Shown here: positions 34,580-45,062 of the stretch, one piece after another | Numbering within the stretch: the stretch's first letter is position 1 | Layout: every line of letters starts with the position of its first letter | IMG/VR virus record: IMGVR_UViG_3300008954_000005 | Span: 1-64,000 of that record | Length of the DNA stretch: 64,000 bases | Reading direction: 5' to 3' (one strand) | From: a virus | Translations under genes and position numbers: made by a program | The notes under the pieces: generated by a model | The model's database searches: none | What the model was told of the DNA's origin: nothing | Seen by the model: only the letters and a program-made list of their open reading frames with translations

Positions 34580-34930
34580 ATGAAGGAAAAAGGAGACACG
34601 GTAGACTTACTGCCGTTTGCTCAGCAAGTTAATGCTTCTCTCCAGAAGCAGAGCAAAGTAAAAAGTACGCTATATGAAAACTGGTTGGTGGACATCTACT
34701 TTGGGCCTAGCCCTACAGCAGATGAAGAACTACCAAGACTAGGTTTTATCGCTTGTGCATCGACACAAGACAAAGAGGCTGGTCCTCTCCCCAACTTGAG
34801 TAACTCAAGTGGGGTGCGAGTAGACTTCGACGAGAAGTCGGTTGTGTGGTGGTCCGGTGACTCACTGGACGATTTAGAATCTAAAATCACAAACGCATTC
34901 CCAGAAATTACCTGGAATAGGGAGGACTAA
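34580..34930 (+). CDS. Hypothetical protein preceding the ubiquitin-like gene
   Basis: 116 residues; the ATG at 34580 has GTGGAG six bases upstream, better than the GTG at 34568. Alpha/beta with a VVWWSGDSLDDLESK helix near the end. The stop overlaps the start of the ubiquitin-like gene (TAATG), so the two are cotranscribed and probably linked in function. No family recognised; it could be a partner or target adaptor. Confidence 0.6.
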   Translation: MKEKGDTVDLLPFAQQVNASLQKQSKVKSTLYENWLVDIYFGPSPTADEELPRLGFIACASTQDKEAGPLPNLSNSSGVRVDFDEKSVVWWSGDSLDDLESKITNAFPEITWNRED

Positions 34931-35361
34931 TGTCCACAGAGAATCTTCAAGAACAGCTTGATTCAGCAATCAAGACCAGAGATGAACATGTTCAAAATAT
35001 GGGAGATGAATTCAGCCAAGCCAATATGGATCGGCTGTCTGCACTCCAGAAGGCCGTTGCATCCGCAAAGACTGCCTTGGAAACCGCCGCTGCTGCAGCG
35101 GCTGCTCCTGCGGTAGAGGGAAATACCGACCTTTGTGTCGTATCTCTAATCCGAAGCGGAAAAAGCGACCGGGTCGTCGAGGTTCCTACGGATACCTCGG
35201 TGAGCGACCTTATGAATACTCTTGGTTGGCCAACCAACGACTTCACGTTTAAGCGTCGAGTCGGCCCAGGCCAAACCGTAGAGATTACCAATCTTGCAGC
35301 CACCCTCGGTACAGGTGATCACGAAATCTTCGTATCACCTCGTGTTGCAGGAGGCTTCTAG
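34930..35361 (+). CDS. Ubiquitin-like beta-grasp protein (PRTRC-C/MoaD-like) with Gly-Gly-Phe end
   Basis: 143 residues. Residues 1-50 are helical and 51-62 are Ala-rich, a likely linker. Residues 66-143 follow the beta-grasp order: strands LCVVSLIRSG and RVVEVPT, a short helix SVSDLMNTLG, strands FTFKRRV and EITNL, and a last strand IFVSPRV before AGGF. G141 and G142 are followed by one Phe, so the JAB protease encoded next door would expose the Gly-Gly. It would be activated by the E1-like enzyme and passed to the E2-like protein. A terminator follows it, so it may be made in excess. Confidence 0.75.
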   Translation: MSTENLQEQLDSAIKTRDEHVQNMGDEFSQANMDRLSALQKAVASAKTALETAAAAAAAPAVEGNTDLCVVSLIRSGKSDRVVEVPTDTSVSDLMNTLGWPTNDFTFKRRVGPGQTVEITNLAATLGTGDHEIFVSPRVAGGF

Positions 35362-35390: not shown

Positions 35391-35428
35391 GGGGGTGGGG
35401 CTACTTCGGTAGCTTCACCCCCTTTTTA
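35391..35428 (+). terminator. Terminator between the ubiquitin-like and E2-like genes
   Basis: GGGGGTG and CTAC pair with GTAG and CACCCCC around TTCG, followed by TTTTTATTT. Read-through would supply the enzyme genes. Confidence 0.8.
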
Positions 35429-35444
35429 TTTACGGAGAATACCC

Positions 35445-36539
35445 ATGGCTTCAACAAGCAACACACAATGGGAATGGAGAGTTGACGACGACAGCGACAA
35501 TCTCGAATTCCTTCTATCTAAAATTATTGATGACTCCGTAGCCTCCTCCAAAGTCAACACAGTTGAACTGGAAACAGAGCTAGCAAAGCTCACAGCAAAA
35601 CGCACTGCTTGGGAGAGTAAGCTAACGCGGAGAAAGTCTATAGAGCAGTCTGTGCGAGAACGCCTAGAAAAACGACAAGTCGAACTCAGAAAAGCTCAAG
35701 ACGCCTTCCATAAAGCTAGGCAAAAAACTAGAGCAGTAGGCTACAAAGTTTCTCAGGCAGTTGAAGACTCAAGGGCTCTTAGTAATACCCTCGGACAGGA
35801 AAAGCTCTTTCTAGACAACTTCGCTGGTATCTACACAGAGGACGCCTTTAAGAACAGGGCCTTTATGGTGATGTCCCTGCGCGAGCGCATTGACTCATCT
35901 ATTCCCATCTCGTTCTCTCATGATAGAGACCAAAAGAAGATGCGGCTCTCGTGGGTCACTGGAGACATCTACATAAATAACTCCTTAGAGGGCGGTGTCT
36001 GGCCATTTAACTTTGGGCAGTACCGCGTAGAGGTCACCTTCAGCTATATGAACGGACATAGAGACGCCAGAGTGCTTATCCGTGGCCACCGAAGAAATAC
36101 CATTGTTTCAGGTGAGTACTTTCACCCGCATATCCGGAGCGATGGTACGGCCTGTCTAGGCAATGTCGCCAGGATGCTAATTGAGCACATGGCTAACCAA
36201 GACGTGGCCCAAGTCATTTGCACAGTTACGGAATATCTGTGTCACTACAACGAACAAGATCCGTACAGAAAACTGATGTTCTGGGGTGTAGCTAATCCTT
36301 ACGACCTCCCACACATCAACATGTACCAGTCTCACTTAGTGTTTGACTCAGGGCCAAAGAACCCCTGTGGCCTCTCACAATCTGACTGCATGGTTCAGCA
36401 TTTGACAGATAAAGCTGGGGAGTGCTCGTCGAGGAGCCTGCCCGCAGAGGTAGTTGTGACAGCAACATCCGTATATGAAAATCTTCAATCTTTTAGGGAG
36501 CGACTTAATGGCGAAGGTAACGAAGAAACCAACGGTTAG
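35445..36539 (+). CDS. E2 ubiquitin-conjugating-like protein with N-terminal coiled coil
   Basis: 364 residues, ATG preceded by ACGGAG. Residues 35-110 are a long charged coiled coil. Residues 140-300 contain a UBC-like core: strands with WPFNFGQYRVEVTFSY, then YFHPHI at 225-230 and DGTACLGN at 233-240. HPH...C matches the HPN...C of E2 enzymes, making C237 the probable thioester residue. It would accept the ubiquitin-like protein from the E1-like enzyme. It overlaps the JAB gene by 32 bases. Confidence 0.8.
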   Translation: MASTSNTQWEWRVDDDSDNLEFLLSKIIDDSVASSKVNTVELETELAKLTAKRTAWESKLTRRKSIEQSVRERLEKRQVELRKAQDAFHKARQKTRAVGYKVSQAVEDSRALSNTLGQEKLFLDNFAGIYTEDAFKNRAFMVMSLRERIDSSIPISFSHDRDQKKMRLSWVTGDIYINNSLEGGVWPFNFGQYRVEVTFSYMNGHRDARVLIRGHRRNTIVSGEYFHPHIRSDGTACLGNVARMLIEHMANQDVAQVICTVTEYLCHYNEQDPYRKLMFWGVANPYDLPHINMYQSHLVFDSGPKNPCGLSQSDCMVQHLTDKAGECSSRSLPAEVVVTATSVYENLQSFRERLNGEGNEETNG

Positions 36540-37506
36540 GTTCAGTCAAAAAGCCTACCAACAAATGTTTGCGTTAACGAACGCGTGTAAAATCGAAATC
36601 AGTGCTATGGGTATTGTTGCTACTGCCGAACAAAAAGAAGACGCGGGTGTAACTGAAGACTTCTATGTAACTGAGTTCTTTGTCATTGATCAGGAGTGCA
36701 CAGGCACGTCAACTGATCTAGATGATGATGCAATGGTGGACCTTCTTATGAACCTGCGTGATCAGGGAATTAAGTCGGAGCAAATGTGTGTTTGGTGGCA
36801 TAGCCACGTAAACATGGCCACTGCTCACTCAGGAACAGATGAAGCCCAAATCGAAAGATTTGATTTCGACACAGTCTGCATCTCTATTATCACTAATAAG
36901 AAGGGTGAGCTAAATCTGCGCGTGGACATGTTCCAGCCGTTTAGACACACCTTCGAGAAGTGTGATTACGTTCTAGACTTCGTAGATATCCTCCCAGATA
37001 ACTGGGCTGAGGAGATGGTCGCCACTCATGTAAATGAGAAAAAGATCATCCCGCAGAGGCTCAACGTTGTGAAATCACGATCACGCGGAGTTGTCACCGG
37101 ATACGGTGGGAACTGGGGTGGTTGGAGTCGTTGGGAAGATGACGATGACGAGCGTAACGTGCTTGGGGCATCCACCACTAGTGGTCGTGAAATCGTTAAG
37201 TCCTCCGACCTACTGAAAGAAGGCGATGACGATGACCTCCCGGCATTTGACGCCCTCGATCTCCCAAAAGAATTGGGTCATCTACAAGACGCGTGGGATC
37301 TAAATCTGCTCGACACTCAGGACGTAATGGAACTCTTTGCGAGATGGTATGCAAAAGAGTTGAGTACAGAAGAAGTTGTCCAAGAGCTAGAGGAAACCCA
37401 CAACATCCTTGTAAGCGATTTAAAAGCTGGAGACGATGAGGATCCGGCTGATGCTGTCGTGGATACTGAAGTAGATGACCTGTTAACTTTTGGAGGTACT
37501 GCATGA
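36508..37506 (+). CDS. JAMM/JAB isopeptidase-like protein
   Basis: 332 residues from the ATG at 36508, which has GGGAG seven bases upstream. The metal centre is complete: E30, H98-S-H100, and S108-x-x-D111 (HSHVNMATAHSGTD), exactly the JAMM spacing. Such enzymes cut ubiquitin-like proteins from targets or trim their C-termini. The C-terminal half, residues 190-332, is acidic and ends LLTFGGTA, itself resembling a Gly-Gly tail. It overlaps E2 and E1 genes on both sides. Confidence 0.88.
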   Translation: MAKVTKKPTVRFSQKAYQQMFALTNACKIEISAMGIVATAEQKEDAGVTEDFYVTEFFVIDQECTGTSTDLDDDAMVDLLMNLRDQGIKSEQMCVWWHSHVNMATAHSGTDEAQIERFDFDTVCISIITNKKGELNLRVDMFQPFRHTFEKCDYVLDFVDILPDNWAEEMVATHVNEKKIIPQRLNVVKSRSRGVVTGYGGNWGGWSRWEDDDDERNVLGASTTSGREIVKSSDLLKEGDDDDLPAFDALDLPKELGHLQDAWDLNLLDTQDVMELFARWYAKELSTEEVVQELEETHNILVSDLKAGDDEDPADAVVDTEVDDLLTFGGTA

Positions 37507-38165
37507 TTGACACCACGAGGCAGTCTGGAATTATTCCAGACGACCGCCTCTCGGACGTGTCGGTAGCGATCATCGGTGTGGGGGCCATTGGCTCTCACAC
37601 CGTTGAGTCGCTCTCAAAAATGGGAATCCGACATTTTCATATATTTGATGATGACGTTGTAGAAGAACACAACCTAGCCAACCAAGGCTATTTCCTACCC
37701 GAAATCGGGTATAAGAAAGTTGAAGCCTTAGCTAATCGTATTTCGGTTGGAACTGGGGCGGAGGTTGTTGCTGACGCATGTCGAGTAGAAGACAACCACG
37801 ACTTTACGGAACGGTACGTAATCTCTGCTGTAGACAATATGGCCTCTCGAAAAAGCATTTTCGAATCATTCCTCAACAGCACCACATCCCGTTTCTTTTT
37901 GGATGGTCGTATGGCGGCTCGGTTCGGGCAAGTCTACTTCGTAGACAAACTCAAACCAGAAACCATCGAAAAGTATGAAAACAGCCTATTCAGTGATGAG
38001 GAAGCTGTTCCCCTGCCGTGCACGGAGAAGGCCACAATCTTCTGCGCGTATGGGATTGCGTCTTTTATGTCCGCTCTTATCGCAAAGAGCATTATCGAAG
38101 AGCCCATTAAGTTTATGTCTGCGGAACTAGATTTCGCAAACATACTCCTGATGCAAGCTCTTTAA
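37503..38165 (+). CDS. ThiF/E1-like adenylating enzyme
   Basis: 220 residues, ATG overlapping the previous stop. The nucleotide motif GVGAIG lies at 25-30, the Asp cluster FDDD at 48-51, NLANQG at 57-62, and SAVDNMASR with D111 and R116 fits ThiF enzymes. C173 in LPCTEKAT is the best candidate for the catalytic Cys. At 220 residues it is a minimal E1 without the separate ubiquitin-fold domain. It would adenylate the Gly-Gly end of the ubiquitin-like protein. Confidence 0.85.
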   Translation: MIDTTRQSGIIPDDRLSDVSVAIIGVGAIGSHTVESLSKMGIRHFHIFDDDVVEEHNLANQGYFLPEIGYKKVEALANRISVGTGAEVVADACRVEDNHDFTERYVISAVDNMASRKSIFESFLNSTTSRFFLDGRMAARFGQVYFVDKLKPETIEKYENSLFSDEEAVPLPCTEKATIFCAYGIASFMSALIAKSIIEEPIKFMSAELDFANILLMQAL

Positions 38166-38215: not shown

Positions 38216-38959
38216 ATGGCGAATGACAAGCAGAAAAGTTGGACCACCGGTCTTCCTATGGAGGGCCTCATCAGCCCGTCTCGGGCACCCGATGTGATCA
38301 GCGTGGAATTCAACGGTACTACCACCAAGCTTCTGAAGCAGGTGGTAGCGAAGGATGAGGAGGGCACCGCCGTCTCCATCCGATACGTTGGAACACCTGT
38401 TGGTCCTGACGGGCGGTCCTGCCGCTTCGCAATGTCCATTGAAACAAATGGATTCGTGCGAGGCTCTGCGGCGATGAACTTCATCGCTGCGGGTGGTTGG
38501 GGTCGTGGTACGACTAAGCCCGATGAGGCTACCAAGCGTGAGAGCCGGAACAACTTCGTTCGTGGACTCATCACTAGCGCAATCGTCCATCAGGGTATGG
38601 ACAACAGCGCGGAGATGAAGTCCGTGATCGAACGGGAAACCGGCCTCACGGTTACTGACGGTGAGATGTCCCCAGAGGACAAGAACCTGTACGCTCTGTT
38701 GGGCGTTCGGGCGTACATCGTCACCTTGGCGGAAAGCCGGAACCTCAAGTTCTCGGTGGACCTCAAGAGCTTCATGGGCAAGGTGGTTCAGCCTACCTAT
38801 GCCGCCATCGTTGAGGGGGAGTGGGATGAGGAAAGTGACGAAGTCGCTCTCACCTCTGCTCTGAGCGAGGCTCACGTTCAACTGCTCACTGGTGCAGGCC
38901 TGAAGTTCCGCAAGGTTCGGAGGGCTCGTGGGGTGCAAAGGAAGACTCAGACCTCGTAG
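38216..38959 (+). CDS. Hypothetical protein, probably highly expressed
   Basis: 247 residues, start after CCCTTAAGGAGGG, the same strong leader used at 4515 and 5164. Codon use is GC-rich. Globular alpha/beta, ending in a basic tail. No family recognised. It is the last gene before a terminator in the ubiquitin-like cluster, so it might be an abundant substrate or partner. That link is only positional. Confidence 0.6.
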   Translation: MANDKQKSWTTGLPMEGLISPSRAPDVISVEFNGTTTKLLKQVVAKDEEGTAVSIRYVGTPVGPDGRSCRFAMSIETNGFVRGSAAMNFIAAGGWGRGTTKPDEATKRESRNNFVRGLITSAIVHQGMDNSAEMKSVIERETGLTVTDGEMSPEDKNLYALLGVRAYIVTLAESRNLKFSVDLKSFMGKVVQPTYAAIVEGEWDEESDEVALTSALSEAHVQLLTGAGLKFRKVRRARGVQRKTQTS

Positions 38960-39004
38960 TCTGATCTCCCAATTGTACGCTTAGCCGTGCGGGCCTTATA
39001 GAGA

Positions 39005-39035
39005 GAGGGGGGTTTATCCCCCCCTCTTTCTTTTT
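39005..39035 (+). terminator. Rho-independent terminator
   Basis: A GAGGGGGG / CCCCCCCTC stem is followed by TTTCTTTTT. Confidence 0.8.
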
Positions 39036-39074
39036 ACCCCAAACCCTATTAAGGTGTAATACCGATTGATAGAA

Positions 39075-39094
39075 TGACAGAGAATACCCTGTCA
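39075..39094. promoter_or_regulatory. Dyad TGACA-N10-TGTCA, copy 1
   Basis: A 20-bp inverted repeat with AT-rich spacer. Copy 2 begins 21 bp later, two helical turns, suggesting cooperative protein binding. Confidence 0.7.
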
Positions 39095-39095
39095 C

Positions 39096-39115
39096 TGACA
39101 AACAATAGACTGTCA
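39096..39115. promoter_or_regulatory. Dyad TGACA-N10-TGTCA, copy 2
   Basis: Same half-sites and spacing as copy 1, offset by 21 bp. Confidence 0.7.
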
Positions 39116-39154
39116 GTAAAACACTAGGTTTATCCGCTAGTTACGTATTTTTTA

Positions 39155-39168
39155 GGGTATAAGTACCC
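39155..39168 (+). promoter_or_regulatory. Promoter-like motif GGGTATAAGTACCC
   Basis: The recurring TATAAG motif, immediately followed by dyad copy 3, so a protein bound there would block transcription of the gene at 39226. Confidence 0.55.
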
Positions 39169-39188
39169 TGACAGACAATTACTTGTCA
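39169..39188. promoter_or_regulatory. Dyad TGACA-N10-TGTCA, copy 3
   Basis: Exact half-sites directly downstream of the promoter-like motif; a likely operator. Confidence 0.7.
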
Positions 39189-39225
39189 GTCCCTTCTATT
39201 CCCACAGTCCACAAGGAGGATTCAA

Positions 39226-40308
39226 ATGTCGATAAGGTTGATGAACACACGTGTTCCAGACCATATTCTTGTAAAAGGCGTGGTCACAAAAAGGTCTACG
39301 GCGTATTCAACCAACCTTTTCTGTGACCCAAACGACCCAGAAGAAACAGCTTACTTCGAAGATGAACTTACCCCGCTTGAAAAGGGTCACGTCTACCTTT
39401 GGAAAGAAGATGAATCTGGTGCAGTCTTAGTCCACATGCCATACAGAATTATGGATAAAGAAACTGGTTCCCTTCTGAAGGGTCTCAGTTCCTATAGGTC
39501 AATTGGGACTTTAATTGCTAGAAGCATACCCCAGAAAATGACTCTATCTCCAAAATCTTGCTTACAGGATTTTTTACTGAGCTATACCGATTTTAAAGTA
39601 TTCTCTCATAGAGTAGAGACCTTAGGGGGTACTACTGAAAAGGACTCAGTTGACCTAGAGCAGTTCCTGAAAGACATGCAGTACATCACTTCAGAAGCAA
39701 GTACCCTCCAAGCAAAAATAGGGACACTCAGGACAAAATACTGTATGTCTAGTTCAGAAGAATTATTGGACACAGAGGAAAAACTAAACGAAGTTCTTAG
39801 AGAGTTTGCCTGGGTAAGAGAAGAGATAACAGAGCTTGGTAACAAGCGGGTACTTATTGTTAAGAAGCTTGCCGCATTGAAGTGTGAAATCAATAGGACA
39901 ACTGACTATATCAGAGCTTCAGCGGAACAAGAGCAAGTACAAGAAGCCCTTAAGATGCTTAACCAAACCAACTTCGACAGAATTACCAGAGAAGCGATAC
40001 ACAAACACAATATCGATTCAGGCAGAGAACAGTCTACTGTGATACCTGCCCATATTGGTTCTCTGGCTAGCGCAATAGCGGAACTTAGAACGTACTACCC
40101 AGCCCTCACAAAGCTGACAGGTCATGGAGAGAACGTAGTCATAAGCCTCTCAGGTCTTAGGCTCATTCTTACACCAACTACCATAAAGGTAGAAGGAGAC
40201 CCATCAGTATTGAAGCCCTACATGGGTGAGGGCGCTACAGTAGACGCTTCCGGAAATGCTTCTCTTCGGAGAAGGAGGAGGAACATTGTACCAGATGTAA
40301 AGAAGTAA
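39226..40308 (+). CDS. Coiled-coil protein between dyad clusters
   Basis: 360 residues, ATG after ACAAGGAGG. Residues 1-120 are globular with strands; residues 125-250 form long coiled coils; residues 265-340 are again globular, ending in a basic RRRRR stretch. AT-rich codon use compared with the genes around it suggests a separate origin. No family recognised. The dyads on both sides suggest it belongs with the ParB-like protein, for example as a partition or packaging partner, or as the regulated target. Confidence 0.6.
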   Translation: MSIRLMNTRVPDHILVKGVVTKRSTAYSTNLFCDPNDPEETAYFEDELTPLEKGHVYLWKEDESGAVLVHMPYRIMDKETGSLLKGLSSYRSIGTLIARSIPQKMTLSPKSCLQDFLLSYTDFKVFSHRVETLGGTTEKDSVDLEQFLKDMQYITSEASTLQAKIGTLRTKYCMSSSEELLDTEEKLNEVLREFAWVREEITELGNKRVLIVKKLAALKCEINRTTDYIRASAEQEQVQEALKMLNQTNFDRITREAIHKHNIDSGREQSTVIPAHIGSLASAIAELRTYYPALTKLTGHGENVVISLSGLRLILTPTTIKVEGDPSVLKPYMGEGATVDASGNASLRRRRRNIVPDVKK

Positions 40309-40315
40309 CACACAC

Positions 40316-40335
40316 CGACAGAGTATAGATTGTCA
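40316..40335. promoter_or_regulatory. Dyad CGACA-N10-TGTCA, copy 4
   Basis: One half-site differs by one base. It lies just after the coiled-coil gene. Confidence 0.6.
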
Positions 40336-40388
40336 AGCCAATAGGCGGTTGATCTCGAAGTAAGTACAGGCAATTACTACGTTTTTAA

Positions 40389-40408
40389 CGACAAAGATTA
40401 CCTTGTCA
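40389..40408. promoter_or_regulatory. Dyad CGACA-N10-TGTCA, copy 5
   Basis: Paired with copy 6 at the same 21-bp offset as copies 1 and 2. Confidence 0.65.
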
Positions 40409-40409
40409 G

Positions 40410-40429
40410 TGACACACATTATATTGTCA
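40410..40429. promoter_or_regulatory. Dyad TGACA-N10-TGTCA, copy 6
   Basis: Exact half-sites; lies 85 bases before the start of the ParB-like gene. Confidence 0.7.
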
Positions 40430-40513
40430 TTTTATTCCTAATGGAGAACCTACTACCGATGAATATTTATGCAGCGGTATTGAGAACAAAACCAACAAAT
40501 GGAGGTTATTACC

Positions 40514-41413
40514 ATGCAGCTTGAGCAGCAGGTATTCCCAATTGACAGCATCGAGCGAAATGTGCTCGGTTTCCGAAACAGTCGATCCGATGTTGGAGAT
40601 ACGCGAGAACTTCGCGCCTCCATCATTTCCGATGGGCTGCTAAACCCCCCAATCGTTCACGTTACTACAGATGAAGATGGTAATGAGAGAGTCCTTCTCA
40701 TTGCGGGCTATCGACGACTCCAGGCTATTCTGGATGAGCGGCAGGCTCGAAGTGAGGGGGAGGATGAAGAGGCTTTCTTCGAAGACATCGCATGCGGTGT
40801 CCACGTTGGATCTCTTGAGTCCGCTCTCGCCCTGAACATTGCAGAGAACCTGCAGCGTGAAACGCTAAACTTCGCAGATAAGTGTGAAGCCGTATTCCGA
40901 CTTAATGAGCGCATCGGTAATCAGCAAGAAGTTGCTGATATGCTGAACATCTCTCAGCCCCAGGTGAGCGTTCTTTGCTCCACCTACAAGGGACTGAGTA
41001 CTGTTGCGTTCGATTGTCTTCGGCACGGTCGAATCACCATGGGACAGGCTAAGAAGCTTGCCAAGGTGGTGAAGGCTGACGGTACTCCAGACGCTGGTCA
41101 GCAGGATGAAATCCTTGAACAGCTTCTGGGACAGGGTAAGGATGAGGTTCCTGACACTAAGCAGCGTCAGCGAGCTAAGACCTACCGCTCGAAGAAGGAA
41201 GTCGAAGAGCTTCGTACCGCTCTTGCAAACGACGAAACCGGACTGGATCAGGAGCACAAGGACGCGGCGACCCGCTTCGTTCAGTGGTACTTCTGCGAAA
41301 TCGATACTGATGAACTCATTCATCGTATTGATGCGGTCGAAGAGGTTACGGTCGAAGATAAGCCCACCAAGAAGACGATTAAGCGTAAGCGTCGTATTCG
41401 GGTAGGTGACTAA
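40514..41413 (+). CDS. ParB-like DNA-binding protein
   Basis: 299 residues, ATG after TGGAGG. The N-terminal ParB/Srx domain has GLLNPPIV near 41, AGYRRLQA at 64-71 (the G-x-R-R CTP/DNA motif) and ENLQRETL at 111-118. A helix-turn-helix follows at about 136-158 (QEVADMLNISQPQVS). ParB proteins bind palindromic sites; the six dyads around 39.1-40.4 kb are the obvious candidates. No ParA is seen. PRTRC plasmid cassettes also join a ParB-like protein with ubiquitin-like, E2, JAB and ThiF proteins. It could control or segregate DNA. Confidence 0.85.
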   Translation: MQLEQQVFPIDSIERNVLGFRNSRSDVGDTRELRASIISDGLLNPPIVHVTTDEDGNERVLLIAGYRRLQAILDERQARSEGEDEEAFFEDIACGVHVGSLESALALNIAENLQRETLNFADKCEAVFRLNERIGNQQEVADMLNISQPQVSVLCSTYKGLSTVAFDCLRHGRITMGQAKKLAKVVKADGTPDAGQQDEILEQLLGQGKDEVPDTKQRQRAKTYRSKKEVEELRTALANDETGLDQEHKDAATRFVQWYFCEIDTDELIHRIDAVEEVTVEDKPTKKTIKRKRRIRVGD

Positions 41414-43006
41414 ATGAACCGGAGCGTCGAAGAACTCGACGTTCTCATTAGGGCTGCGCACCCGGTGATCTTTGTGGTTAGCCATGAAGAACATCGGGTT
41501 GCGCAAGCTCTTCATGAGATTGTTGAGCGCAAAAATAAAAGTTCAGAGGCTAACGCCTCTCTGTGGACATGGTCTATGACCGATGGAGCCTACTGCGGCG
41601 ACGAAAACTTCACAGATTTAGACGGTCCTCTTGAGATTCTTGAGCATATCGGAAAGTACGAAAAATCCGGTGTCTTTATGTTGAAGGACTTCGCGTATTT
41701 CCTGAATGAAGGCCCTGCCTATCTTGTTCAAAGAAAACTACGCGACCTCACGTCAGCTATGGGGCATGGAATTTCCATCGTAATTGTGGATAGTGAGTTA
41801 AACATCCCACCCCGTCTTGAGAAGCTTATGACCGTTGTGGACTTCGACCTCCCAACAGCACAAGAACTTGAGAGCTACACGGCGTGGGTAGTTAAGGACC
41901 ACCTAGGTAAGCAGAAGGACGTACCCCAAATTCATGAGGACGCCTGTAATGCTGCCGTAGGCCTTACTGCTACAGAAGTTGAAAACGTCTTCTGTAAGTC
42001 GCTCGCTAAAAATAGCACGCTTGATCCTAAAGTGATCATGGAAGAGAAGAAGCACATCATTCGTAAGTCTGGGGTGCTTCAGTACCATGACGTAGATAGG
42101 GATATGGCTGATGTAGGTGGACTCGCAACCCTTAAGGGATGGGTCAACCAACGAGGTCGGGCGTTCACCTCCAAGGCTAGAGAGTATGGTCTTCCACACC
42201 CAAGAGGAGCCCTCATTGTGGGAATTCCGGGTACTGGTAAATCCTTGATTGCAAAGTGTATCGGCGCATCATGGAAGATGCCGGTGCTGCGTATGGATGT
42301 GGGCGCTTTGTTCGGACAGTTTGTCGGGCAGTCAGAAGCAAATATGCGGAAGGCCCTGAAGACTGCGGAAGCTCTAGCTCCCTGTGTATTGTGGATTGAT
42401 GAACTCGAAAAGGGTTTTGGTAGTGCGGGTGGTGGGGGTGCTCACGATAGCGGAACCTCTGCCCGTGTGTTTGGTAGCTTCCTATCTTGGATGCAGGAGA
42501 AAACTTCTCCTGTATTCGTAGTTGCTACCGCAAATGACGTAAGCCAACTTCCACCAGAGATGCTTAGAAAAGGAAGATTTGACGAATTGTTTTTCGTAGA
42601 CCTTCCAAATGAAGCAGACAGGAAGGAAGTATTCCGTATCCACATTAGCAGGCTGGGGAGAGACCCAGACATGTTTGATCTCGGTGATCTTGTCAAACTC
42701 ACGAACGGTTTTACCGGCGCTGAGATTGAGCAAGTGATCGTTGACGGTTTATTCTTGGCCTTTGATGAGGACAGGGAACCAACCCTAAATGATTATTCAA
42801 TTGCTGCTGCTAGGACAGTCCCAATCTCCAAAACAATGGAGAAGAAGATTGAAGCTCTTCGTGGCTGGGCAAATGGTCGTGCTCTCATGGCCAATGAGTC
42901 TGACAAGCGAAAGAACGCTCCTACAAGCAGAGCGGCCAAGCGTGAAGGACGAGTCAAGCCAACAACAGGCTCTGACTGGTCCGGTCTGAAGAAGAAGGCA
43001 AATTGA
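41414..43006 (+). CDS. Ycf46-like AAA+ ATPase
   Basis: 530 residues, ATG one base after the ParB stop. Residues 1-230 are the degenerate N-terminal half of Ycf46-type proteins. The AAA+ core has Walker A GIPGTGKS at 270-277, Walker B VLWIDELEK near 327, TANDVSQLPPEMLRKGRFDE with the arginine finger near 390, and FTGAEIEQ as sensor 2. Such ATPases remodel proteins. Together with the DUF2997 and DUF1257 genes downstream it forms a trio known from cyanobacteria and plastids. The substrate may be proteins tagged by the ubiquitin-like system. Confidence 0.88.
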   Translation: MNRSVEELDVLIRAAHPVIFVVSHEEHRVAQALHEIVERKNKSSEANASLWTWSMTDGAYCGDENFTDLDGPLEILEHIGKYEKSGVFMLKDFAYFLNEGPAYLVQRKLRDLTSAMGHGISIVIVDSELNIPPRLEKLMTVVDFDLPTAQELESYTAWVVKDHLGKQKDVPQIHEDACNAAVGLTATEVENVFCKSLAKNSTLDPKVIMEEKKHIIRKSGVLQYHDVDRDMADVGGLATLKGWVNQRGRAFTSKAREYGLPHPRGALIVGIPGTGKSLIAKCIGASWKMPVLRMDVGALFGQFVGQSEANMRKALKTAEALAPCVLWIDELEKGFGSAGGGGAHDSGTSARVFGSFLSWMQEKTSPVFVVATANDVSQLPPEMLRKGRFDELFFVDLPNEADRKEVFRIHISRLGRDPDMFDLGDLVKLTNGFTGAEIEQVIVDGLFLAFDEDREPTLNDYSIAAARTVPISKTMEKKIEALRGWANGRALMANESDKRKNAPTSRAAKREGRVKPTTGSDWSGLKKKAN

Positions 43007-43875
43007 GTCGCGGGCGGCATCATACTGGAATAATCCAGCTAGACGAATTTCTTCAGGGAGGTCTTCCTTCGGGTATCTGCGAAGTTATCGGGGAAGACGC
43101 GAGTGGGAAATCTACGTTGGGGTTTAGTGTGATGAGGGAGGCCTCTTTAAGGGGCCTCCCAACCGCCTTGATTCATACGGAAGGGTATCCCGATAAAGGG
43201 TATATCCGTAGGTCCGGTCCAACCGAATGCTTAGTTAGTGTACCTACTAACGCCGAAGCAGCTATCGAATCTGCCCACGTTTCCCTCCTTAGTGGGTGTG
43301 TGATCGTAGTGATCGATTCTCTTTCGGCTGCTGAGTCTGTATGCGATCAGGCTCAAGTTGTCGGTGACCGTGTCCCTTTCGCTGCTAGGAAGATGGCTTA
43401 CCATGGCCTTAGTATCCTCCGAGAAGAAGCCTTAAAAAGAAACGCATTGGTGCTGGTCGTGAATCAGCTAAGAACGCCTATCCAATCCCTAGTGCCCACA
43501 CCCTGTTCCTCATTTGAGGGGACTATAAACAGGTTGTGTGCCGTGCGGATAAGGACCGTTAGAGAAACCACCAGAAATGAGTATGGGGAGCTTGCCTACC
43601 TAAAGGTGCGGTTCAACATCTATCGCTCATTGGTTTCTCCCCCAAGTGACAGAGCCTACGGATTTCTCTTTAATCAAAAAGGGTTTTGTCGGGGCTTCGA
43701 ACTTATGCGTGCTCTATTATCGGCTAATATACTAGACCAAAAAGGCGCATACCTTATCGGTCAAGATGGCAAATCGCTAGGCCCTGGGTATCTAGGTGCC
43801 GCAGAGCAAATCAATAAAAATTTTGAACACTATCGGAGGATCTACGATGATCGAAGTCAAAGTAGTAGTCCATGA
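43003..43875 (+). CDS. RecA-like ATPase
   Basis: 290 residues from a TTG that overlaps the previous stop (TTGA). It has Walker A GEDASGKST near residue 30, VIVVIDSLSAA near 105 as Walker B and LVLVVNQLRTP near 148 corresponding to the RecA L2-proximal strand. The start QLDEFLQGGLPSGICEVIG is typical of RecA/UvsX-type recombinases. The sequence diverges from host RecA, so it is a phage recombinase. The coupling with the AAA+ gene is notable. Confidence 0.82.
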   Translation: MSRGRHHTGIIQLDEFLQGGLPSGICEVIGEDASGKSTLGFSVMREASLRGLPTALIHTEGYPDKGYIRRSGPTECLVSVPTNAEAAIESAHVSLLSGCVIVVIDSLSAAESVCDQAQVVGDRVPFAARKMAYHGLSILREEALKRNALVLVVNQLRTPIQSLVPTPCSSFEGTINRLCAVRIRTVRETTRNEYGELAYLKVRFNIYRSLVSPPSDRAYGFLFNQKGFCRGFELMRALLSANILDQKGAYLIGQDGKSLGPGYLGAAEQINKNFEHYRRIYDDRSQSSSP

Positions 43876-44032
43876 AGACGGAACCGTTGAGACCGAGGTT
43901 AATGGCGTAAAGGGAAAGGGTTGTACCCAGTACACAAACGCTGTAATCAAGGCCTTGGGCGGTGAAGTAGTCAAGGATGAAAAGAAACAAGAGTATTATG
44001 AGTCCGAGTCTACCTCTGTGAAGAGTAGATGA
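43847..44032 (+). CDS. DUF2997 protein
   Basis: 61 residues, ATG after CGGAGG, overlapping the RecA-like gene by 29 bases. IEVKVVVHEDGTVETEVNG then VKGKGCTQYTNAV and ALGG match the DUF2997 family, small proteins that typically neighbour Ycf35/Ycf46-type genes. Function unknown. Its stop overlaps the next start (ATGA). Confidence 0.75.
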   Translation: MIEVKVVVHEDGTVETEVNGVKGKGCTQYTNAVIKALGGEVVKDEKKQEYYESESTSVKSR

Positions 44033-44616
44033 GGATCCATAGAGTTACCTACGGAAGTCGTGTAAACGGCCCCGGTGTAAGAACAGTTCTACATACACAG
44101 GGATGCACAATAGGCTGCGCCGGTTGTTTCAATGCACACACCTGGGATGCCGACAAAGGCGACGAACTCACGGTAGATACCGTTATTGAACTGCTTCTGT
44201 CCGACATTAAGGACGGAGTGACTATTTCTGGTGGAGAGCCCACCGAGCAATGGGAAGAGCTACACGTAGTTCTTCAAAGACTTAAAGACGTAGGCCACAG
44301 TGTGGTCCTATTTACAGGACTAACCAAAGCCCAACTAGAAGAACGTGAGATCTGGAAAGATCTTCAGAGCCTAACCGATATCCTTATCGTTGGGCCATAT
44401 GACAGAACAAAACATATACAAAGTGAACCTTTAAGAAGCTCCTCTAATCAGGAAGTCTTCTTCTTCTCAGAATACACATCTGATGATCTAGAATCCGTAC
44501 CGGAAATCGAAGTACACGTTGACGGGGATACCGTCACCATTGCTGGGTTTCCTACTAAACCAATAAGAACAACTCTCTTACGAGAGTTAAAGGAGGGCGC
44601 ATGTCGCACCTTGTAA
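44029..44616 (+). CDS. Radical-SAM protein, NrdG-like small type
   Basis: 195 residues. C26, C30 and C33 (CTIGCAGC) form the CxxxCxxC cluster motif for a 4Fe-4S centre; GVTISGGEPTEQ near 65 is the SAM-binding GGE. It has the length of activating enzymes such as NrdG, but no anaerobic (class III) reductase is in the window, so its partner may be another protein in this operon. The C-terminal 50 residues are beta-rich and unusual. Confidence 0.8.
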   Translation: MRIHRVTYGSRVNGPGVRTVLHTQGCTIGCAGCFNAHTWDADKGDELTVDTVIELLLSDIKDGVTISGGEPTEQWEELHVVLQRLKDVGHSVVLFTGLTKAQLEEREIWKDLQSLTDILIVGPYDRTKHIQSEPLRSSSNQEVFFFSEYTSDDLESVPEIEVHVDGDTVTIAGFPTKPIRTTLLRELKEGACRTL

Positions 44617-45020
44617 GTTGTAAGTCCTGTATGAAGGACAAAGATGCCGTACTCTCCGCTCTTAGTAAGCTAGGGGTTCCCGCAGAACTGATTCAAGTAG
44701 CGCAAGATGGCCAAACCCTGGACCTCCAAGGTTACATGCGTGGCCACACTGCGAAAGTGGATATCCTTGTGGATAGATCTTTTCACGGCGGATACGGACC
44801 TTTTGGTTTTTCCAAGAGTGAGGACGGAACATATCAAGTTCACGTAGACGATATGGATGACCGTGGCGCACTAGCTGCGAAGACTAAGACTAGTACATTT
44901 TCCACTGGAGTAAGTCAGTGGTACAGCGCTCTGAAAGCCCAGAGAGCCTTAAAGAAGCAAGGTCTCTCCACCAAAATCAAGCAAGAAGGGCAAAAGCTGG
45001 TGGTTTTGGCTAAGGGATAA
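44601..45020 (+). CDS. DUF1257 (Ycf35-like) protein
   Basis: 139 residues, ATG after AAAGGAGG, overlapping the radical-SAM gene by 16 bases. MSHLVSCKSCMKDKDAVLSA at the start, then DLQGYMRGHTAKVDILVD, FGFSKSEDGTYQVHVDD and a final helix fit DUF1257/Ycf35. Its function is unknown; it co-occurs with DUF2997 and Ycf46-type genes. Last gene of the plus-strand operon before a terminator. Confidence 0.75.
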   Translation: MSHLVSCKSCMKDKDAVLSALSKLGVPAELIQVAQDGQTLDLQGYMRGHTAKVDILVDRSFHGGYGPFGFSKSEDGTYQVHVDDMDDRGALAAKTKTSTFSTGVSQWYSALKAQRALKKQGLSTKIKQEGQKLVVLAKG

Positions 45021-45028
45021 TACACTAA

Positions 45029-45062
45029 ATGCGGACTCCCCCGGTGGGGTCCGCATTTTTTT
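45029..45062 (+). terminator. Rho-independent terminator
   Basis: An ATGCGGAC / GTCCGCAT stem with C- and G-rich upper part is followed by seven T. Confidence 0.85.

Follow-up and report, generated by a model that had tools for sequence, protein, structure and literature searches.

The stretch of viral DNA considered here (the window, 64,000 nucleotides) covers positions 1 to 64,000 of IMG/VR virus record IMGVR_UViG_3300008954_000005, a 155.7-kb record in which end repeats were not found. At issue is a run of six genes that includes a Ycf46-type AAA+ ATPase, a DUF1257 protein, a DUF2997 protein, and a radical SAM protein, and that follows a cassette of ubiquitin-like (Ubl) conjugation genes. 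The set formed by these four families is the lasting result of the analysis: it is found again across many bacteria, in some archaea, and in further phages, mostly unaccompanied by ubiquitin genes. The radical SAM link, a natural DUF1257-DUF2997 fusion, and an invariant cysteine in DUF2997 are the points that are new here. A sequence-only reading of positions 38216-45020 had listed ParB, Ycf46-type AAA+, RecA, DUF2997, radical SAM, and DUF1257 genes after the Ubl cassette, and all six lie there as open frames with family matches:

40499..41413, + strand: ParB-like DNA-binding protein (PHROG ParB 3.1e-13; TIGR00180 1e-11, below cut-off)
41414..43006, + strand: Ycf46-type AAA+ ATPase with a Cdc48-like AAA domain (PF00004 2.5e-29; phrog_8638 4e-140)
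43003..43875, + strand: RecA-like recombinase (PF00154 2.7e-16)
43844..44032, + strand: DUF2997 protein with an invariant Cys (PF11211 1.7e-13; 50.7 bits, passing the cut-off of 24.1)
44029..44616, + strand: NrdG/PflA-like radical SAM protein (Fer4_12 6.7e-29; motifs CxxxCxxC, GGEP, and SSNQ)
44601..45020, + strand: DUF1257 (Ycf35-type) protein (PF06868 22.9 bits, marginally over the cut-off of 22.2)

Two further genes in the same interval, g247 and g360, were unnamed in the title of that reading. The window forms a clade with six distinct viral contigs (L007; L008, with L026; L009; L017; L018; L019), while L010 and L011 give figures identical to those of L009.

Characteristics of the encoded proteins

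In the AAA+ protein, Walker A (G270-S277), Walker B (D329 and E330), N374, R385, and R388 are invariant among eight aligned sequences. The solved domains closest to its AAA domain are those of Cdc48/p97, but the window protein differs from these in having a single conserved AAA ring and a Ycf46-type N-terminal region. It is 43-44% identical to cyanobacterial proteins (L079, L083, and others) over residues ~6-496, the N-terminal region included, and in those cyanobacterial loci DUF1257 adjoins the AAA+ gene just downstream; this resemblance supports the Ycf46-type label. The ParB-like protein also matches Pfam HTH_ParB and ParB_N, below cut-off, and the RecA-like protein is the sole strong RecA match in the record. 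DUF2997 likely starts at the ATG at 43844.

The CxxxCxxC and GGEP motifs of the radical SAM protein are invariant in 43 of 43 sequences, which places it in the NrdG/PflA branch, although it scores below the NrdG equivalog cut-off (TIGR02491, 99.2 versus 126.1 bits). The DUF1257 protein was not reported by a genome-level search of the clade records, but a DUF1257 profile built for this study groups it with other DUF1257s. Its AlphaFold model has a pLDDT of 94 and no Foldseek match to solved structures at E <= 0.001; the best VIA-align Z of 5.7, with phosphoglucomutase and Integrator C-terminal domains in tied rows, is too weak to name a fold. Sequence searches of solved structures with DUF1257, g247, and g360 returned nothing of weight.

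Occurrence of the set in other genomes

A profile scan for AAA+ relatives supplied the best 80 of 520 confirmed genome loci and, among viral contigs, the best 80 of 154 loci, 75 of them new. All are full-length relatives of the window AAA+, and both samples consist of its nearest relatives rather than a random draw. The neighbour survey counts 150 of 155 loci; the five rows removed are L121 and L122, from the window's own clade, and L154, L158, and L188, whose neighbour tables are identical to that of another row. Near-copies with zero or no distance on the tree (L170/L184, L189/L191, and L151/L164) are still among the 150. The hosts of the AAA+ loci include Planctomycetota, Spirochaetota, Bacillota, Myxococcota, Cyanobacteriota, Hodarchaeota, and phages. 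The trio of AAA+, DUF2997, and DUF1257, which the sequence-only reading took to be known otherwise from cyanobacteria and plastids, is not confined there.

Within 2 kb of the AAA+ gene, DUF1257 is found in 53 of the 150 loci, DUF2997 in 56, and NrdG-like radical SAM in 25 (18 radical SAM matches lie no more than 150 bp away); the corresponding counts are 14 for RecA, one for ParB, and zero for E1. Match densities per 100 kb inside this distance are 9.8 for DUF1257, 10.0 for DUF2997, and 4.5 for radical SAM, compared with 0.34, 0.23, and 0.40 farther out in the same loci, so that the near-to-far ratios are 29x, 43x, and 11x. All but one of the 136 near matches (135) are on the AAA+ strand. DUF1257 or DUF2997 lies within 8 kb of the AAA+ gene in half of the loci (75/150), and radical SAM is present in 28 of these 75 versus 3 of the 75 without them (Fisher p 3.6e-7, uncorrected for kinship). 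Clustering the neighbours of 165 loci without reference to families yields DUF1257 (63), DUF2997 (62), and radical SAM (28) as the three commonest groups. On an AAA+ tree of 164 rows, a quick tree from which L037 and short rows were excluded and on which long branches were flagged, the radical SAM label changes 12 times, with at least 4 changes forced by starred (well-supported) branches.

DUF1257 and DUF2997 are joined in a single frame in one natural fusion (L124, 9194-9775). A joint DUF1257/DUF2997 alignment on this fusion went unused, since the DUF1257 rows fell onto the DUF2997 half. The DUF2997 cysteine is invariant in 77 of 77 sequences, and two glycines are kept in 76/77 and 75/77.

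The surveyed loci that combine radical SAM, AAA+, and DUF1257/DUF2997 (Planctomycetota, Spirochaetota, Bacillota, Melainabacteria, and phages) resemble the window in having the four families on the same strand, often with short spacing. They differ in that the radical SAM gene usually directly precedes the AAA+ gene, whereas in the clade it is between DUF2997 and DUF1257. The surveyed cyanobacterial loci have DUF1257 but neither radical SAM nor DUF2997 within 8 kb, while the window operon also contains RecA, ParB, and radical SAM. In two Planctomycetota loci (L100 and L089), two DUF1257 genes flank the radical SAM-AAA+ pair, the upstream one accompanied by DUF2997 and the other just downstream. 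AAA+, DUF1257, and DUF2997 are also present on IncC-type plasmids and on a Nostoc plasmid. A Treponema succinifaciens plasmid (L036, 11366-13521) encodes an AAA+ protein 46% identical to that of the window, with radical SAM just upstream, inside a VgrG/baseplate cluster. A 314-amino acid family (L176, 11960-12904, and relatives) lies by the AAA+ gene in 21 loci, 19 of them in viral contigs and most or all without DUF1257/DUF2997.

To our knowledge, cyanobacteria and plastids have long retained Ycf46, Ycf35 (DUF1257), and DUF2997 with no agreed biochemical role for them. One report (PMC4284462) lists DUF2997, ycf35, and fed7 as a cluster in Synechocystis, which provides an independent Fe-S link for the set, and another (PMC10954446) describes an antitoxin of SGI1 as related to SpoVK/Ycf46/Vps4. 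A search limited to open-licence PMC articles, which is no proof of novelty, found no literature linking Ycf46/DUF1257/DUF2997 to radical SAM or to a phage Ubl cassette.

The ubiquitin-like cassette and gene spacing

Upstream of the operon, and between and after the coding units, are the following features:

34930..35361, + strand: Ubl-like protein ending in GG plus one residue (GG kept in the clade)
35391..35422, + strand: terminator hairpin 3' of Ubl (14-bp stem and T run)
35445..36539, + strand: E2-like protein with an invariant Cys (HPH...ACLGN; UQ_con E 0.027, below cut-off)
36475..37506, + strand: JAB/JAMM isopeptidase-like protein (Prok-JAB E 0.019, below cut-off)
37503..38165, + strand: E1/ThiF-like protein (PF00899 9.8e-22; PRTRC_ThiF 1.5e-16, below cut-off)
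38216..38959, + strand: g247, clade-restricted (AlphaFold pLDDT 81; no family match above cut-off)
39001..39030, + strand: terminator hairpin 3' of g247 (-23 kcal/mol and T run)
39226..40308, + strand: g360, clade-restricted, with a predicted coiled-coil-like middle (weak SMC/Rad50-type matches; no family above cut-off)
45027..45058, + strand: terminator hairpin closing the operon (13-bp stem and T run)

Judged by its protein sequences, the cassette appears to carry the complete motif set of ubiquitin-like conjugation: a Ubl with GG, an E1, an E2 cysteine, and a JAMM motif. The Ubl-like protein has no Pfam family above cut-off, but its GG is retained in all seven clade sequences (aligned or printed), followed by a tail of 1-3 residues, or of 21 in L007. 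C237 of the E2-like protein is invariant, as are the HSH-x7-S-x2-D motif and E41 of the JAB-like protein (three aligned sequences in each case). A single scan for E2 in viral contigs was negative. Both g247 and g360 are found only in clade contigs. The g247 model has no Foldseek match in the PDB at E <= 0.001, its best VIA-align Z of 4.0 is too weak to name a fold, and single- and three-sequence profile comparisons with crAss gp75 and PRTRC E/F, which are shallow, gave nothing.

PMC1779556 describes E1/E2/JAB/Ubl operons in bacteria and Ubl/JAB genes of phage tails. The plasmid PRTRC system shares the ThiF, JAB, E2-like, Ubl-like, and ParB-like gene types with the window, but differs in gene order, in protein E/F (unmatched in the window), and in that AAA+, DUF1257, DUF2997, and radical SAM lie outside PRTRC. 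Among the PRTRC models (ThiF, ParB, A, B, and C), only ThiF (60.5 versus 144.75) and ParB (33.3 versus 278.6) match, both below cut-off. The suggestion that PRTRC gene types are joined to the trio holds insofar as the Ubl/E2/JAB/E1 set precedes the block in 7/7 clade phages, but not as an assignment to PRTRC by these models. The gp79-gp76 cassette of crAss001 is similar in having a Ubl-like gene, a gene in the E2-like position, JAB, and E1 in the replication region; it differs in that three crAss-like records have no DUF2997, and profile comparison supports only E1 and JAB as homologues.

The whole block from Ubl to DUF1257 has an identical order in the six other contigs, at ~29-74% amino acid identity. 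Collinearity across the clade also extends to the flanks, over ~28-54 kb of the window wherever the loci are long enough for comparison. Because the compared flanks share it, the conserved order says nothing of joint function; it reflects common descent, and synteny was rejected as functional evidence.

The junctions of ParB, AAA+, RecA, and DUF2997 overlap or touch (-98 to +7 nt) in all six tabulated loci, and the radical SAM-DUF1257 junction is -16 to +3 nt in five of the six (261 nt in L007). The gap between DUF2997 and radical SAM is -4 nt in the window and 249-405 nt in the remaining five. Gaps of 143-677 nt separate g247 from g360, and 190-276 nt separate g360 from ParB. The tightly coupled order proposed for the whole interval is thus present from ParB to DUF2997, extends to radical SAM in the window only, and is absent on both sides of g360.

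A hairpin 3' of Ubl is at the matching place in 7/7 clade loci (-23 to -29 kcal/mol), as is the one 3' of DUF1257 (-13 to -20 kcal/mol). The g247 hairpin is strong in three loci (the window, L007, and L009) but weaker in L017, L018, L019 (9 bp), and L008; there is no notable hairpin 3' of g360. The window has 22 terminator-like sites versus 13 expected, so isolated weak hairpins mean little and the argument lies in conserved position. A promoter scan was of no use (4 sites versus 11.5 expected). The conserved hairpins after Ubl and after DUF1257, together with the wide gaps around g360, suggest that ParB to DUF1257 form an operon separate from the Ubl/E2/JAB/E1 genes. The first of these hairpins may also lift Ubl dosage above that of its enzymes.

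Association of the cassette with the AAA+ set

Profiles for E1, JAB, E2, and Ubl, made from clade proteins and widened with crAss and PRTRC sequences, were searched against 165 Ycf46-type AAA+ loci. E1 was found in three, two of the window's own clade and L186, and the four profiles gave nothing beyond these. L186 has a PRTRC-type ThiF (5.1e-21, below cut-off), an E2 of the Prok-E2_D type (35.5 bits, above cut-off), and a weak Ubl match, all upstream of radical SAM, AAA+, DUF1257, and DUF2997. This PRTRC-type E1-x-E2-Ubl piece occupies 2351-5033 of L186, and the corresponding site is without the piece in its relatives L159, L172, L193, and L195, of which L172 and L193 encode E2_D and ThiF at another place in the record. 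The L186 lineage is a second phage lineage, unrelated to the window's clade, with PRTRC-type E1 and E2 and the trio in one genome; on the AAA+ tree, a wide distance separates it from the clade.

Co-residence was compared in 48 viral records, hand-picked from the viral loci with larger contigs preferred. ThiF is present in 5/5 own-clade records, 3/20 other trio-bearing records, and 1/23 controls (p 0.32). The sole ThiF-positive control, L128, has a DUF1257 match 3.8 kb from its AAA+ gene; reclassifying it as trio-bearing changes the figures to 4/21 versus 0/22 (p 0.048). When the L186 lineage is treated as a single case, p is 1.0 with L128 as a control or 0.18 with L128 moved. ThiF does not firmly exceed the control level in trio-bearing records, and the neighbourhood survey that the sequence-only reading had named as its own refuting test therefore yields no firm enrichment. 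DUF2997 is found in none of ten E1-bearing phage or plasmid records: three crAss-like phages, one PRTRC plasmid, KLEB27-3, Arash, D69, ME3, Fpv3, and PhiXhv-12, with a ThiF match rather than a whole cassette seen in Arash, D69, and PhiXhv-12. The Ubl cassette and the AAA+ set co-occur in two distant lineages, but these counts do not establish an association above chance.

Interpretation

The preferred reading, to which we give a probability of about 0.5, is that the window holds two adjacent, separable modules of a large-phage lineage. The first, comprising Ubl, E2, JAB, E1, and g247, would be a PRTRC/crAss-like conjugation cassette. The second would be the operon of ParB, AAA+, RecA, DUF2997, radical SAM, and DUF1257, containing the widespread AAA+/DUF1257/DUF2997 set that is often accompanied by radical SAM; RecA and ParB would serve the phage itself in recombination and DNA binding and would share a transcript with the set. 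Several observations weigh against this reading. The hairpins are predictions from sequence and a phage antiterminator could override them, and the presence of RecA and ParB within the operon is unexplained by a pure AAA+/radical SAM module. Half of the surveyed AAA+ loci (75/150) have neither DUF in reach, 47 of the 75 DUF-bearing loci have no radical SAM, so the set is not obligatory, and the DUF1257 and g247 models fit no solved structure well.

That the four families travel together is seen in gene content, coupling, hairpins, recurrence, the fusion, and the cysteine; the mechanism that we infer goes further. The AAA+ protein would form a Cdc48-like ring and open or remodel a client, assisted by DUF1257 and DUF2997 as a pair of partners or adaptors. 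Either the exposed client or DUF2997 would be modified by the radical SAM protein, a member of the activase branch, in a reaction that is radical-based or Fe-S/thiol-linked. In its fullest form, the proposal is of an unrecognised, widespread machine that would use ATP to remodel a client and so open it to radical chemistry, with DUF2997 as a thiol or radical carrier; in at least two phage lineages, a Ubl cassette joined to the machine may select the clients. We regard this as tentative and rather unlikely. The radical SAM partner, the fusion, and the invariant cysteine nevertheless make an AAA+ remodeller with radical/thiol chemistry a testable proposal, and in systems much more tractable than plastids. 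A glycyl-radical role for DUF2997 was considered as an idea only and set aside, as DUF2997 is outside that family and the Gly_radical model has no match in the seven clade records.

Alternatively, the genes may be ordinary passengers, with RecA as the phage recombinase, radical SAM as NrdG for an anaerobic ribonucleotide reductase, and the rest as unrelated replication-region genes. The best radical SAM scores are indeed to NrdG and PflA, and RecA is without a strong counterpart in the record. However, the NRDD model (NrdD) has no match in the window's record, the one record searched, which is possibly a fragment and whose host may have NrdD, and Gly_radical is likewise unmatched in 7/7 clade records, which are possibly incomplete and where an enzyme of the host could fill the role. 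A glycyl-radical enzyme encoded by the phage is consequently not the obvious client, and the same radical SAM family is found beside AAA+ in bacteria, which makes the passenger explanation unlikely.

The sequence-only reading had favoured one integrated system; in such a system, Ubl would be attached to proteins of the phage or host, the conjugates would be extracted or unfolded by the Cdc48-like AAA+ with DUF1257/DUF2997, and ParB would bring the machinery to DNA. Both modules are present in 7/7 clade phages, the AAA domain is nearest to Cdc48/p97 among solved chains, and L186 holds both modules within 11 kb, with E2 and ThiF elsewhere in two of its four relatives and the two lineages far apart. 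These points are set against the collinear flanks, the gaps and conserved hairpins that separate the units, the 165-locus profile search with matches only in the clade and L186, the lack of firm ThiF enrichment (3/20 versus 1/23), the absence of DUF2997 from 10/10 E1-bearing records, and the abundance of the trio without Ubl genes. On this evidence, integration is improbable. PRTRC-type maintenance of a phage-plasmid, in which ParB and the Ubl cassette would segregate or maintain the genome with AAA+ as an accessory, is the least probable explanation, since, despite weak PRTRC-model matches for ParB and E1 and IncC plasmids that carry the family AAA+ with DUF2997, all PRTRC matches are far below cut-off, ParA (AAA_31, PF13614) has no match in 5/5 clade records searched (possibly fragments, and searched with this ParA-type model only), ParB is coupled to AAA+ rather than to the Ubl cassette, and sheath-like and other structural genes are nearby.

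Related genes in other phages

The E1/JAB-type genes of several phage lineages are annotated merely as thiamine biosynthesis or hypothetical. The crAss-like records L033 (5289-10511), L034, and L035 have a Ubl-like gp79, gp78, a JAB-motif gp77, and an E1 gp76, grouped as a cassette in the replication region; the annotations of these genes read thiamine biosynthesis, metalloprotease, or hypothetical. In Flavobacterium phage Fpv3 (L201, 2610-7712), the ThiF gp52 is among uncharacterised genes of similar sizes, which may be the same cassette, and it adjoins a uracil-DNA glycosylase and an exonuclease.

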